Assembly: GCF_002727185.1 (NCBI RefSeq)
Contig: NZ_NIZW01000025.1
Location: 1 to 64,000, forward strand
Origin: Rhodopirellula bahusiensis
Lineage (GTDB): Bacteria; Planctomycetota; Planctomycetia; Pirellulales; Pirellulaceae
Direction of reading: 5' to 3'
DNA: 64,000 nt
Shown: positions 1 to 6,630 of the stretch, piece after piece
Layout: the number at the start of each line of letters is the position of its first letter
Position numbering within the stretch: the first letter of the stretch is position 1
The notes under the pieces: generated by a model
Databases searched by the model: none
What the model saw: only the letters and a program-made list of their open reading frames with translations
Told to the model about the DNA's origin: nothing
Translations under genes and position numbers: made by a program

Positions 1-72
1 CGCACGAAGTCTTTCGAATTGGTCCGCGACTACGTGTTCGACCGCCCCGTGATTGCGAGGGTGGAAGAATGA
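1..72 (+). CDS. C-terminal end of an upstream gene (partial)
   Basis: Frame 1 is open from the window edge to a TGA at 70-72, giving the last 23 residues of a protein that ends ...VIARVEE. Its stop overlaps the ATG of the next gene in an ATGA arrangement, the same coupling used by the genes downstream. That makes it a credible first visible member of the operon. The fragment is too short to assign a function. Confidence 0.5.
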   Translation, partial: RTKSFELVRDYVFDRPVIARVEE

Positions 73-1247
73 TTGAACAGCAAACCAGAGGTGAACAGCT
101 TGCCGCGTTGCGGAAGATCAAGATTGAATCCGCCAAGCATCGAGGCCGAACTGTATCGGGCGCGATCTGCAAAACGGTTTTGCGTGTCATCGACGATCGA
201 GCGGGGCAGGAAGGTTGCTTTGCGAGCCAAGCGACCATTGCCGAGGAAGTTGGTTGCAGCGTCGCAACCGTATCCCGAGCGGTGGCGGTGCTCACGTCGA
301 TGGACCTGATCACCATCGAGCGGCCCAACCCGTATTCGTCGAATCATCACCGCATCAACTGGACGGCCGTTTTTCAGTGCGTTGCAGGATGCCAAGACGG
401 TGATGGCACCATGCCAACACAGACTTGGCCAGACGCCAAGTCAGACTTGGCACCATGCCATGCCACACTTGGCACAGAGCCAAGACCGTCTTGGCCAGAA
501 GCCATGGGAAACGCCCCATCAATCGCAGATTCATTCGCCCCCACCAATCGCCCCGATCAATGGGCGGAGGTGGTGGACGAGATGTTTCGATGGGGATTGA
601 AATCCGCCGCGGTCGCAGTGGATGCCGGTCGCCAGTCTGGTTGGTCGACCGGGTACGTTCGCGAATTGTTCATCGAGGCCGGAGGCAACCGTGAGGCCCA
701 GCGATGGGAGCCAGGGCAGCTTGCCAACTGGTTAACCGGCAAGACCCCGCCGCCGTTCGATGAGCACGAAGCCGCCCAGCGTGCCGCCGATCGAATCGAT
801 GGACCCGCCAAGCGTGACGCCAACGAGCTCCGCGAATCCGTCCGGCGTGATGGGCTGTCCCGTGGCGTTGCCGAGTTCATCATCGAGGGGCTGACGTTCC
901 GCAAGTTGGCCGCGGCTGGCCTGGATCGCTTCGCCACCGATGCGGAAAAAGCCGCCGCCGTGCGTCTCGATGAACTGGACCGGGAGCGGAGCGAAAAACC
1001 GTCTCACACCGTCAACGCTCGCAGCGGTTCAGCACCGAACGCGATTAATGAGCCACAGAACCGAGAGCGTGCGACAGCGAGCCACACGGGACGCCAAAGA
1101 CAAGACGCGGCAAATCACTCCCATGCCCGCACGCAAAATCGCGGATTGTTCCAACGGATCCCATCAAGCAACCGTGGGACCAGAGCGTTTGATCGGAAGC
1201 GAGCGGAGCTCGCCGAGTCGTTGGCCATCGGAGGAACACAACCATGA
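69..1247 (+). CDS. Winged-helix replication-initiator-like / DNA-binding protein
   Basis: A 392-aa protein. Residues about 45-85 (FASQATIAEEVGCSVATVSR) form a helix-turn-helix of the HTH_36/MarR-like type, common in replication proteins of plasmids, prophages and integrative elements. The rest is hydrophilic. Residues about 105-140 have skewed composition because the DNA there is a cluster of GCCAAG/CTTGGC palindromes (391-495). The C-terminal third is Arg/Ala-rich and probably disordered or DNA-contacting. The start ATG overlaps the preceding stop (ATGA) and the end overlaps the next start (ATGA), so translation is probably coupled. Function inferred: replication initiator or master regulator of the element, possibly binding its own internal repeats. 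A plain transcription factor is the alternative. No catalytic motif was found. Confidence 0.6.
   Translation: MIEQQTRGEQLAALRKIKIESAKHRGRTVSGAICKTVLRVIDDRAGQEGCFASQATIAEEVGCSVATVSRAVAVLTSMDLITIERPNPYSSNHHRINWTAVFQCVAGCQDGDGTMPTQTWPDAKSDLAPCHATLGTEPRPSWPEAMGNAPSIADSFAPTNRPDQWAEVVDEMFRWGLKSAAVAVDAGRQSGWSTGYVRELFIEAGGNREAQRWEPGQLANWLTGKTPPPFDEHEAAQRAADRIDGPAKRDANELRESVRRDGLSRGVAEFIIEGLTFRKLAAAGLDRFATDAEKAAAVRLDELDRERSEKPSHTVNARSGSAPNAINEPQNRERATASHTGRQRQDAANHSHARTQNRGLFQRIPSSNRGTRAFDRKRAELAESLAIGGTQP
391..495. repeat. Cluster of GCCAAG palindromes (iteron-like) inside the rep-like gene
   Basis: Two perfect 17-bp palindromes share one architecture: GCCAAGTC-A-GACTTGGC at 435-451 and GCCAAGAC-C-GTCTTGGC at 479-495. 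A further half-site GACTTGGC lies at 422-429 (inverted relative to 435-442), GCCAAGAC lies at 391-398 and CTTGGC at 468-473. TGGCACCATGCCA occurs twice, at 404-416 and 448-460. Repeats this dense within a coding sequence are not expected from protein constraint. Inference: iterons or operators bound by the encoded winged-helix protein, comparable to plasmids whose origin lies inside rep. Confidence 0.65.
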
Positions 1248-1576
1248 TGTTTTCGAATTTCGAAACGTACTCAATCGCGGAGGTGCAAAACCTTTGCGGG
1301 TATCGAAGCCGAATTGATGCAGAAGCCGAGTTGGCATCCAACAACGTGGTGGGCGTTCGCATGGGGGCGACTCTCGTTTATCACGGCCAAGTTTTGAACG
1401 ACATGGTCATGCGAGTGTCCGCGACCCATCAAGACCGTGGAGAAAGCATCAAGCGGAAACAACAGAAGCGATCCGTTGGCGGAAAGTTTGTTGCGACCCC
1501 GTGCCCCAAGTGTTCCGCAGCGATGAGCCGCGGCAAGTGCCCCGAATGCGATCGAACAAAGGACAAAACCAAATGA
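1244..1576 (+). CDS. Small DNA-binding-like protein with C-terminal zinc ribbon
   Basis: A 110-aa protein. The N-terminal half (YSIAEVQNLCGY...) resembles the start of AlpA/excisionase-type helix-turn-helix proteins. The C-terminus holds CPKC-x7-CPEC (residues about 87-101), a four-cysteine zinc-ribbon pattern, followed by a Lys-rich tail. It overlaps both neighbours by 4 bp (ATGA), so it belongs to the same translationally coupled operon. Function inferred only: a small nucleic-acid-binding accessory factor of the element. No specific family recognised. Confidence 0.6.
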   Translation: MMFSNFETYSIAEVQNLCGYRSRIDAEAELASNNVVGVRMGATLVYHGQVLNDMVMRVSATHQDRGESIKRKQQKRSVGGKFVATPCPKCSAAMSRGKCPECDRTKDKTK

Positions 1577-1788
1577 CATCGACCAACCATGATGGCATCA
1601 TCGACGACAACCGGGTTTATACCACCAAGGCGTTGGCGGTCATTCTCGGATACAAGCAAGCGAGGTCATGCGAAAACGCTTGCGAGCAGATCGGTTGCCC
1701 CGTGAAGCGGATCGGCGCGAAGTCGCTCGTTTCGGGATACGAGTTTCGGCTTGCACTTGAAGCATGGGACGGAACCGATGAGTCTTGA
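1573..1788 (+). CDS. Small excisionase/AlpA-like helix-turn-helix protein
   Basis: A 71-aa protein. The ATG at 1573 is chosen because it overlaps the previous stop as ATGA; an upstream in-frame start at 1501 would lie deep inside the zinc-ribbon gene. The sequence VYTTKALAVILGYK followed by SLVSGYEFRLAL looks like a short winged helix of the kind found in excisionases and AlpA-type regulators. It shares its layout with the N-terminal half of the preceding protein, so the two may be paralogous modules. Role inferred: recombination directionality or regulation of the element. Confidence 0.55.
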   Translation: MTSTNHDGIIDDNRVYTTKALAVILGYKQARSCENACEQIGCPVKRIGAKSLVSGYEFRLALEAWDGTDES

Positions 1789-2173
1789 AGCTCTTGACCG
1801 CTACCGGGAAGCCATCGAGCGAACAGCCGAGGCCGAAAAGGCGTTGATTGATTGGCGAGCTCGTTTGGCGATCATCGAGAAAGAAATCGAGTTGAGCGGG
1901 AAGGCATCCGATACGCCGTCCAAGTCGAGCACCGAGCAGTTTATCGATGACCACCGGGACAAGCTGGAACCCGACGACATCGAGTTCCTTTCGGAACGAC
2001 ACCGCGGAGCCAAAGAGGTGGTTCGCTATTCGGGAGTCTCAGAGTCATCGCTCAAACGCATGGCAGACGACGGGACGCTCGAGATTCGCCGCACGGATTC
2101 GGGGCATCGTCGCTACCGCACGCTATCGGTGGTCCAGTACTTGATCACCGGGAGGGACGAACAGGATGTTTGA
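1778..2173 (+). CDS. MerR/excisionase-type helix-turn-helix protein
   Basis: A 131-aa protein starting at ATG 1778, which overlaps the previous gene by 11 bp; a TTG at 1751 is also in frame but less likely. The N-terminal part (residues 1-60) is charged and helical. The C-terminal part carries VVRYSGVSESSLKRM followed by DSGHRRY, the classic MerR/Xis pattern of a GVS helix-turn-helix with the GHRRY wing. Known: proteins of this type act as excisionases or as DNA-binding parts of serine transposase systems. Its place as the last gene before the tRNA-proximal end fits a directionality factor. Exact role is inferred. Confidence 0.6.
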   Translation: MSLEALDRYREAIERTAEAEKALIDWRARLAIIEKEIELSGKASDTPSKSSTEQFIDDHRDKLEPDDIEFLSERHRGAKEVVRYSGVSESSLKRMADDGTLEIRRTDSGHRRYRTLSVVQYLITGRDEQDV

Positions 2174-2338
2174 CCCGAGGCGTGCGGAGTTGGGGGCCCG
2201 CCTTGGGTCCTCCCAGGACTTTGAACGTTGACCCGTGCGGTTCGCAGGCCCGGACTTGCGAGAGATAGTCCGTCCGGTGGATGCAATGGACCGCTCTAAC
2301 CGAGAAGGAATCGAGTTAATGCAGCGAGCCAAAAACAA

Positions 2339-2370
2339 AAAGGCAGGTAACCCGAAGGTAACCCGCCTTT
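2339..2370. terminator. Imperfect hairpin between the element and the tRNA gene
   Basis: A 14-bp left arm (2339-2352) and right arm (2357-2370) pair with two mismatches around a CGAA loop. The stem ends in AAA/TTT on its two sides, as in a bidirectional intrinsic terminator, but the T-run is only three bases. It lies between the plus-strand element operon and the minus-strand tRNA-Leu, where a terminator serving both would be expected. Confidence 0.4.
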
Positions 2371-2403
2371 GTGGAAACGCCGCAAAAAACGACGTTTATT
2401 CGA

Positions 2404-2485
2404 TAGGGCTGACAGGAATCGAACCTGCACTCCCGAAGGAACTAGATCCTAAATCTAGCGCGTCTGCCAGTTCCGCCACAGCCCC
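2404..2485 (-). tRNA. tRNA-Leu (anticodon TAG)
   Basis: On the minus strand a full cloverleaf folds: the 7-bp acceptor stem GGGGCTG/CAGCCCT (one G-U pair), T8 and G9, a D-arm with GCG/CGC stem, an anticodon loop TTTAGGA giving TAG (reads CUA), the long variable arm typical of leucine tRNAs, a TTCGAAT T-loop, and discriminator A. CCA is not encoded. It follows rplI on the same strand. Its 3' end faces the integrated element, so it is the likely integration target. Confidence 0.93.
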
Positions 2486-5631: not shown

Positions 5632-6630
5632 CTACCTGTTTTGCGTCGCCGATCCAGTCGCTTTGGCAATCGCATCGTTGATCACTTCCAGCATTCCACC
5701 CAGCGACGCATTGTCAAACGTTCGATTTCCCAAATGCTCTCGCAAAGCGGGAGTCCAGGAAACCTGCGTCTTGCCAGGCAATCGCTGCAGTGCGAACGCC
5801 CGGTCACTGGGTATCGTCCAGGAGATTTCATCGCCTTCAACATGAATCGCACGATCCTCGACCGTGTCGGCCGGAATCAGATGAATCGGCATCGCGGACT
5901 CAATCGCCCACTGTTTTGCACCCGGTGGCGTGATTTCTTCGTTCAGCAACCAAACCGCCATTGCCGTTCGCCCCGTCTTCGGATGGGTCCAAATCAAATG
6001 CCGCATCCGACGGTCGACATGTTGACCGTTGATTGACATCAGCGCAGTGACATCGAAGACGATCAACGAGGTGGTTTGAATCACAACGATTGGCGGATCC
6101 ATCATCGCTTCATTCTTCGCCAACACGCGACTGGCGATCATCCCCAGGTCCGCCCCAAGCGATTTGGCTTTCTCTGAATTGACGATCGTCGGTCGTTTGC
6201 CAATCAAATAGGAATGCCCCAGTCCGACCTCGCGAAGCTGGAACTCGCCGTCTTCTTGGACGACGGTTGCCATGATCGCCAAACCAAACAGACTGCTGTT
6301 CTGACGAACCATTTCCGTCACATCGCTCACGTCGCCATGTGTCAGCTTGGGCGTGCCCAGAAACAACAGCTGGTTGAAGCGATCACGTTGCATCGACCGA
6401 GCGACCAAACCAGGCGGCAAGCGAACGACACCCGAGTCGATTCCCCAGGCGGCTTTCGCGAGCGGTTGTTTCGCGAGCGGTTGTTTCGCGAAAACGGAAC
6501 CTGGGTCCGCTGACGATGACAGCACCAGGGTTGCGAAGATCAACGCACACCGAACGGCAAACGCCAAACCAACCTGAAACAGGCGGGTTTGGCGTTGCGA
6601 GTCAGATTTCAACGAAAGGATTCGTTTCAT
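5632..6630 (-). CDS. Secreted or membrane-anchored protein of unknown function
   Basis: From ATG 6630 this is a 332-aa protein with a basic N-terminus and a hydrophobic stretch (LFQVGLAFAVRCALIFATLV) ending near an AFAK-like site, consistent with a signal peptide or signal anchor. Just after it, a 15-bp tandem duplication in the DNA produces QPLAK twice. The remainder is a mixed alpha/beta soluble domain without recognisable motifs. It begins 16 bp downstream of the clpX stop on the same strand and may be cotranscribed with clpX. The ORF could start eight residues earlier but would then overlap clpX. Confidence 0.7.
   Translation of the reverse strand: MKRILSLKSDSQRQTRLFQVGLAFAVRCALIFATLVLSSSADPGSVFAKQPLAKQPLAKAAWGIDSGVVRLPPGLVARSMQRDRFNQLLFLGTPKLTHGDVSDVTEMVRQNSSLFGLAIMATVVQEDGEFQLREVGLGHSYLIGKRPTIVNSEKAKSLGADLGMIASRVLAKNEAMMDPPIVVIQTTSLIVFDVTALMSINGQHVDRRMRHLIWTHPKTGRTAMAVWLLNEEITPPGAKQWAIESAMPIHLIPADTVEDRAIHVEGDEISWTIPSDRAFALQRLPGKTQVSWTPALREHLGNRTFDNASLGGMLEVINDAIAKATGSATQNR

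Follow-up and report, generated by a model that had tools for sequence, protein, structure and literature searches.

A phased half-site array inside a phage-type initiator-like gene of Rhodopirellula bahusiensis as a probable origin of a proposed tRNA-Leu prophage

Phages are known to carry the DNA sites recognized by a replication initiator within the gene that encodes this protein. In phage lambda, the origin is laid out as iterons within the initiator gene O, as described in the available portions of two reports (PMC6022878; PMC7466680). The accessible text on phage SPP1 presents gp38 as an origin-binding protein with oriL inside gene 38, along with a separate loader and a DnaB-type helicase (PMC6316719). 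Similarly, the replisome organizers ORF13 of TP901-1 and Rep2009 of Tuc2009 bind in-gene repeats that serve as the origin, according to the consulted part of PMC8965321. A further prophage system, BstA/aba, includes a protein and a cognate DNA element that overlaps its gene, with specificity varying between versions, as stated in the available sections of PMC8585504. Among the open-licence papers listed by our literature searches, none deals with where the phages of planctomycetes initiate replication. By our analysis, the locus described herein has a layout of the known kind represented by lambda O, SPP1 gp38, and TP901-1, here with an unusually regular array.

The array occupies positions 391–506 of the window, which is the 64,000-nucleotide stretch analyzed in this report and which begins at the start of contig C25 of Rhodopirellula bahusiensis. 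It is defined, on the basis of its half-site register and of protein-preserving shuffles, as 11 alternating half-sites of the types GCCAAG and CTTGGC with a 22-bp unit. Half-sites start at 391 + 11k (k = 0 to 10) in an exact 11-bp register that fades to either side, and seven of them match at 6/6 positions, three at 5/6, and one at 4/6. Palindromes are centred on every second spacer and equally on the spacers between. Those at 435–451 and 479–495 are 17 bp long, each with 8-bp arms flanking one unpaired central base, and TGGCACCATGCCA is present at 404–416 and 448–460. A first-pass annotation of this DNA had drawn attention to the two palindromes, the extra half-sites, and the two TGGCACCATGCCA copies. 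All of these are present, but the array is larger than was described. The top period of the array is 22 bp, with 44 bp next. Because 22 bp does not divide into whole codons, the reading frame shifts from unit to unit, and the units encode different peptides.

Several measurements speak to the rarity of this arrangement. The pattern GCCAAGN5CTTGGC with at most one mismatch occurs at five places in the window, four of them in the array, compared to a mean of 0.20 per dinucleotide shuffle, and five places were reached in 0/100 such shuffles. Across the whole genome, a three-half-site pattern (at most one mismatch) is found at 14 places, 13 of which are within the arrays of C25 and of a second contig, C10. 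The repeat score of the window gene was reached by 0/300 protein-preserving synonymous codon shuffles (z about 10.4). Moreover, 61 of the 66 letters of the half-site register are matched, and 0/1,000 synonymous shuffles reach this value (mean 50.1, maximum 57), although the protein sequence alone already accounts for a mean of 50/66. As a control, the repeat test was applied to 33 other open reading frames (ORFs) of the window, chosen from 38 by a script that left out those before 1300 or longer than 700 amino acids. The mean z was 0.58, with an outlier of 6.7 and a next highest value of 3.0. The outlier (5635–6630, reverse strand) results from a short amino-acid repeat, QPLAK, and is unrelated to the array. 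Judging from the shuffled sequences, this coding sequence is under selection for DNA symmetry beyond the needs of the protein. An AT-rich tract 3′ of the array was not found in the window, where the GC fraction directly after the array is 0.57–0.62, and scans for promoters and terminators yielded nothing informative.

The array is carried by a gene (69–1247, forward strand) for an initiator-like protein of 392 amino acids, which is composed of a winged helix, a disordered linker, and a helical C-terminal domain. The winged-helix DNA-binding domain (codons 7–98, positions 87–362, forward strand) is indicated by HTH_36, by initiator profiles, and by an AlphaFold model. It is followed on the same strand by a predicted disordered linker (codons 110–160, positions 396–548, pLDDT below 50) and by the C-terminal domain (codons 163–309, positions 555–995), in which NWLTGxTPPP is conserved. 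The array corresponds to codons 108–146 and therefore lies nearly entirely within the predicted disordered linker. The AlphaFold model, made from a 12-row alignment, has a mean pLDDT of 69 and a pTM of 0.33 and places the winged helix at about residues 7–109, and a separate model of the C-terminal domain (codons 158–312) has a mean pLDDT of 89. The latter model matched no solved fold in the PDB (best E 2.7). Fold searches with the whole model recovered generic winged helices from the PDB (best E 0.033) and, from BFVD, helix-turn-helix phage proteins (best 3.2e-6) with poor superposition, and a profile search of the PDB gave generic regulators (best 0.0085).

Residues 43–81 match HTH_36 past the Pfam cut-off (4.1e-7), and residues 35–107 match the phage replication-initiator profiles phrog_270 (2.3e-7) and phrog_8102 (4.4e-6). 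The O-like PHROGs phrog_391 (4.4e-6, residues 36–106) and phrog_678 (3.6e-4) are matched as well. A phage-type initiator looks likelier than the plasmid-type one that had been suggested. The 13 Pfam families matched at E ≤1, of which generic HTH_36 is the best, include neither a plasmid Rep family nor an O-family model, and a single-protein search at E 0.01 gave no match among 72,556 plasmid records, nor any among 50,697 phage records. In addition, NCBIfam offered no initiator family, and viral contigs yielded no relative either by single-protein search or by a search with profile A3.

The genome carries four copies of this gene, of which those on C10, C6, and C55 are 84%, 68%, and 64% identical, respectively, to the window copy on C25. 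The C10 gene has the same array, and its repeat score is reached in 1/300 synonymous shuffles. Between the C25 and C10 arrays, half-sites differ at 3/66 bases and spacers at 12/50 (Fisher p 0.0038), and these changes are distributed across codon positions. Over the same pair, protein drift has lowered linker identity to 76%. At the same place, C6 and C55 carry a different array (class B), in which a CCCGCCCAGCGTG-type repeat recurs five times in direct orientation at intervals of 21 to 23 bp, with a top period of 22 and with scores reached in 2/300 and 0/300 synonymous shuffles, respectively. Identities for the winged helix, linker, and C-terminal half are 89/76/83% and 98/85/84% within the array classes, and 57/23/81% between them (L001–L003). 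These values show that the winged helix and the array were exchanged together between classes and that the C-terminal half was not, as would be expected if the protein binds this array.

Counting the host genome itself, a single-protein search gave matches in 9/241 genomes of its family, and a profile search gave matches in at least 19/396 genomes of its order, which is a lower bound because at most five candidates were scored per genome. A first scan of genome contigs found none, and a second found one locus, in Rhodopirellula solitaria CA85. The window gene, its three paralogues, and relatives form a set of 31 ORFs from which duplicates (L020–L024, L039, L043, L044, and L046) were dropped and whose members are not fully independent, given that L015/L016, L018/L025/L040, L026/L041, and L045/L047 are close. 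In protein-preserving shuffles, the repeat peak is significant at 1% in 27 of these ORFs and at 5% in 29. A 5%-significant repeat starts between −5 and +50 residues from the winged-helix end in 27/31, where the offsets for the most distant rows come from a rough added alignment. The remaining four comprise L032 and L034, whose peaks are non-significant (15/150 and 77/150 shuffles as good) and outside this range, L042, whose peak is ahead of the winged-helix end, and L029, whose peak is 78 residues beyond. This consistent placement and the joint exchange lend support, at the level of sequence, to the proposal of the first-pass annotation that the array is an origin or operator bound by the encoded protein.

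Array sequences differ widely among family members, as exemplified by CGGACATTATGTCCG, CGGTCATGATGACCG, GGGTCAATTTGACCC, and CGCCACTAGTGGCG. A top period of 21 or 22 bp is seen in 21/31 ORFs, one of 12 bp in four, and other values in six. The refuting condition named in the first-pass annotation, homologues without the palindromes, needs to be restated: in most family members an array is retained in this position, usually with another sequence, and 11/31 are without a perfect palindrome with arms of at least 6. The array of L031, a family member from genome G005, includes a perfect 32-bp palindrome, TTTCCGATGCGCCACTAGTGGCGCATCGGAAA. Among 26 ORFs (L016, L032, L034, L040, and L042 left out), winged-helix identity tracks array similarity in a Mantel test that does not fully correct for descent (rho 0.28, p 0.002), and C-terminal identity has no clear link to it (rho 0.12, p 0.11). 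For example, CGGACA half-sites are common to L015, L018, L025, L029, and L030, which have similar recognition helices of the form (S/H/T)ER(S/T)(V/I)RRA, and the C-terminal halves are only 18–28% identical in four comparable listed pairs of these members. However, L026 has CGGACA half-sites despite a different helix, SEKTIQRA, and the link between residues and sites is therefore loose.

Over the 60 bases that follow the array in the 31 ORFs, G+C is not below that of the gene (mean −0.020, p 0.37), and it is lower by at least 0.14 in L013, L017, L035, and L038. A PHROG scan of seven relatives identified initiator families in six at E ≤0.001 and none in L014. The L017 protein matches the O-like phrog_391 across residues 40–253 (5.9e-35) and a DnaD-like loader family (7.8e-36), and its C-terminal part alone matches the O-like phrog_277 (4.5e-21).

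The genomic setting points to a prophage. A tRNA-Leu gene (anticodon TAG; 2404–2485, reverse strand) is the proposed integration site, with the prophage on its 3′ side (window 1–2402). The proposed att core of 23 bp (2403–2425) is the 3′ end of this tRNA gene, and an exact copy exists at C26:6380–6402, where there is no tRNA gene and where an integrase gene (phrog_1, 3e-23) is located about 170 bp away. Also near this copy are a DnaB-like helicase gene (7.7e-75) and a second initiator-like gene (phrog_9474, 8.9e-32) that overlaps its start. This second gene is without an array, as its repeat score is ordinary (92/300 shuffles as good). An initiator- or loader-like gene together with a DnaB-like helicase gene spans L064:934–3122 on C26 and L008:16499–18879 on C10, and thus the prophages of C26 and C10 may have two initiator genes each. 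The second initiator-like gene of C10 has a weak repeat peak (3/300 shuffles). The orientation of the parts fits one prophage, probably with its left end on C26 and its right end on C25, the middle of which is absent from these contigs. The integrated element in a planctomycete that had been envisaged earlier can accordingly be described as a prophage with a proposed att site in tRNA-Leu and with a relative in R. solitaria.

Upstream of the initiator gene, and overlapping its start, is the 3′ end of another gene (1–72, forward strand), full copies of which encode 305 amino acids in C10, C6, and C55. The order on C6 is a tail tape-measure gene (phrog_1533, 1.4e-85), a recombinase, the 305-aa gene, and the initiator. 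The recombinase and then the 305-aa gene precede the initiator in the same order on C55 and C10. The C10 recombinase matches tyrosine integrase families, and the tape-measure-like gene of C55 is recognized from its similarity to that of C6. Elsewhere in the family, L065 (R. solitaria) and L066 have large tail-protein-like ORFs upstream, named by eye, and L067–L069 have an integrase-like ORF nearby, identified by tblastn for L067 and by eye for the others. We considered whether recombinase, 305-aa gene, and initiator form a separate nested element, but tblastn detected neither the recombinase nor the 305-aa gene in the 12–17 kb that surround 10 other family members, and thus the initiator does not depend on their presence. 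The conserved 305-aa protein (L008:9427–10344, reverse strand, and its equivalents on C6 and C55) matches neither Pfam nor PHROG families at 0.01, and its residues 191–236 give a weak HEPN-like match in PADLOC (E 0.0067). On C10, the initiator within the region L008:3696–11975 is surrounded by a D12 adenine methyltransferase and two tyrosine integrases, with a tRNA-Leu (TAA) close by, and the region possibly represents nested elements. A 1036-aa ORF adjoining another family member (L069:9280–12390) is by eye like a type I restriction subunit, and is possible defence cargo. Downstream of the window gene, a small ORF without a family match (1573–1788, forward strand) and a small MerR/HTH_17-like protein with weak excisionase-type PHROG matches (1751–2173, forward strand) also occur in the C10 prophage. 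None of the three ORFs that were tested in the interval 1244–2173 matched a helicase loader in Pfam or PHROGs.

Given these findings, we believe there is a good probability that the winged-helix initiator recognizes the array within its own gene as its cognate site and that this array is the replication origin of a temperate planctomycete phage that now resides as a tRNA-Leu prophage. The evidence from sequence covers the array, its fixed place, selection at the DNA level, the joint exchange, and the prophage setting, and we infer binding by the gene product, strand opening, helicase loading, and origin activity. In the proposed mechanism, the prophage would excise and the initiator gene would then be expressed. 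Winged-helix dimers would bind the half-sites, all of which would point to the same side of the DNA (11 bp is about one turn and 22 bp two), and the bound dimers would build a compact nucleoprotein array. The replicative helicase could then be brought in via the C-terminal domain or via a second initiator-like protein. Both the DnaB-like gene and the second initiator-like gene would come from the opposite end of the same prophage. Once the phage genome is circular, the prophage ends would be joined at attP, and only a few kilobases would then separate the array from the DnaB-like gene, with about 1.9 kb contributed by the window side and about 4 kb by the C26 side. Because another initiator-like gene of the prophage overlaps the start of the DnaB-like gene, the gene examined herein may not be the main initiator. 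Also counting against this reading are the negative search for an AT-rich tract after the array, the C-terminal model that matched no solved fold, the four family members whose repeat peak is displaced or non-significant, and the arrays whose 21-bp period is a codon multiple.

Each half-site has an equally spaced partner in both directions, and for this reason two interleaved binding frames can be imagined. A bolder proposal, which we regard as doubtful, is that this is a register-free form of the intragenic origin, in which dimers occupy the array in both frames and coat it as a continuous helical filament instead of binding as discrete dimers, and that, in planctomycete phages, the winged helix moves with the target inside its gene as one cassette, whose exchange would change the origin specificity of phages that are otherwise alike. 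If the cassette proposal is true, then the two classes in one genome are natural matched pairs of binder and site.

Other explanations for the array can be offered. The same sequence evidence for binding would suit an operator only, whereby the protein represses or shapes its own transcription through the intragenic array while the origin is elsewhere, and the second initiator-like and DnaB-like genes at the opposite prophage end are in line with this. However, the site is about 320 bp into the gene, and initiator genes with phased arrays in this position represent the known layout of origins (lambda; SPP1, PMC6316719; TP901-1, PMC8965321, as far as the available text of these sources describes it). 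Consequently, we consider an operator-only function unlikely. There is a far smaller chance that the array is a self-immunity or incompatibility element in which in-gene DNA neutralizes its own product, as does aba in the bstA locus. The available sections of PMC8585504 do provide a prophage precedent for a DNA element overlapping its cognate gene, and the aba terminal repeat CCCGCC is also present in the class-B unit of C6 and C55, perhaps by chance. In the same sections, however, aba is 63 bp long with two terminal repeats and overlaps the gene start, and the family profiles in our case are those of replication initiators. PADLOC matches are confined to the helix-turn-helix (at best 0.008 to CasR for the window protein, 5.7e-4 to Csa3 for L017, and none for L004), and at E ≤1 none is named BstA, in a library whose BstA content is unconfirmed.

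An RNA structure in the mRNA that serves as an attenuator or regulator is equally remote, even though the window array folds at −58 kcal/mol (z −8.0, 0/200 shuffles as good) and a stretch of L003 reaches z −3.5. This stretch spans only part of the L003 array plus upstream sequence, the class-B array of L004 is at z −1.7 (13/200 shuffles as good), and the 11 arrays that are without a perfect palindrome were mentioned above. Most arrays share the helical phasing of DNA rather than pairing. Finally, a coding minisatellite might expand neutrally in a linker that is predicted to be disordered, and the 21-bp arrays, found in 13/31 members, are codon multiples. This seems the least probable explanation, because 22-bp arrays shift the frame, half-sites are kept while linker residues change between C25 and C10, and protein-preserving shuffles never reach the window array.

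With the array taken as the probable origin and cognate site, the family has several uses. Because each gene carries a DNA-binding domain and its presumed target a few codons further on, the family provides many matched pairs for the study of DNA choice by winged helices. From sequence alone, family arrays could also help to locate the origins of phages in genomes, and the array described herein is an example of coding sequence selected for DNA symmetry.

Among known systems, lambda permits the closest comparison. When the same repeat test was run on lambda gene O as a control, its peak fell at codons 116–155 (z 12.4, 0/200 shuffles), where the four annotated iterons occupy codons 117–145. This span nearly coincides with codons 108–146 of the window gene. 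As in lambda O and ori-lambda, an N-terminal DNA-binding domain is followed by an array-encoded linker and a C-terminal domain, and inverted-repeat sites are spaced near two turns (20, 24, and 23 bp in lambda). In contrast to the four separate 18-bp palindromes of lambda, the half-sites of the window form one continuous alternating 11-bp register. Also unlike lambda, in which gene P is directly downstream, the window has neither an AT-rich tract adjoining the array nor a loader match in the downstream ORFs tested, and the matches to O-like profiles are largely limited to the winged helix. Because an AT-rich tract and an adjacent loader gene were sought and not found, we do not claim membership in the lambda O family. 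BstA/aba differs in its defence function and in the location of aba at the gene start, per the available text. As described in the consulted portions of the reports cited above, SPP1 has direct repeats, an AT-rich region, and a second origin, and the repeats of TP901-1 and Tuc2009 are direct as well, unlike the alternating half-sites of the window. For both, the likeness described here is one of layout: as with SPP1 gp38, the putative sites are inside the gene of the protein itself and a loader-like gene and a DnaB-like helicase gene stand apart from it, and as with the TP901-1 ORF13 kind, an initiator-type DNA-binding protein is encoded by a gene that carries phased repeats within it.
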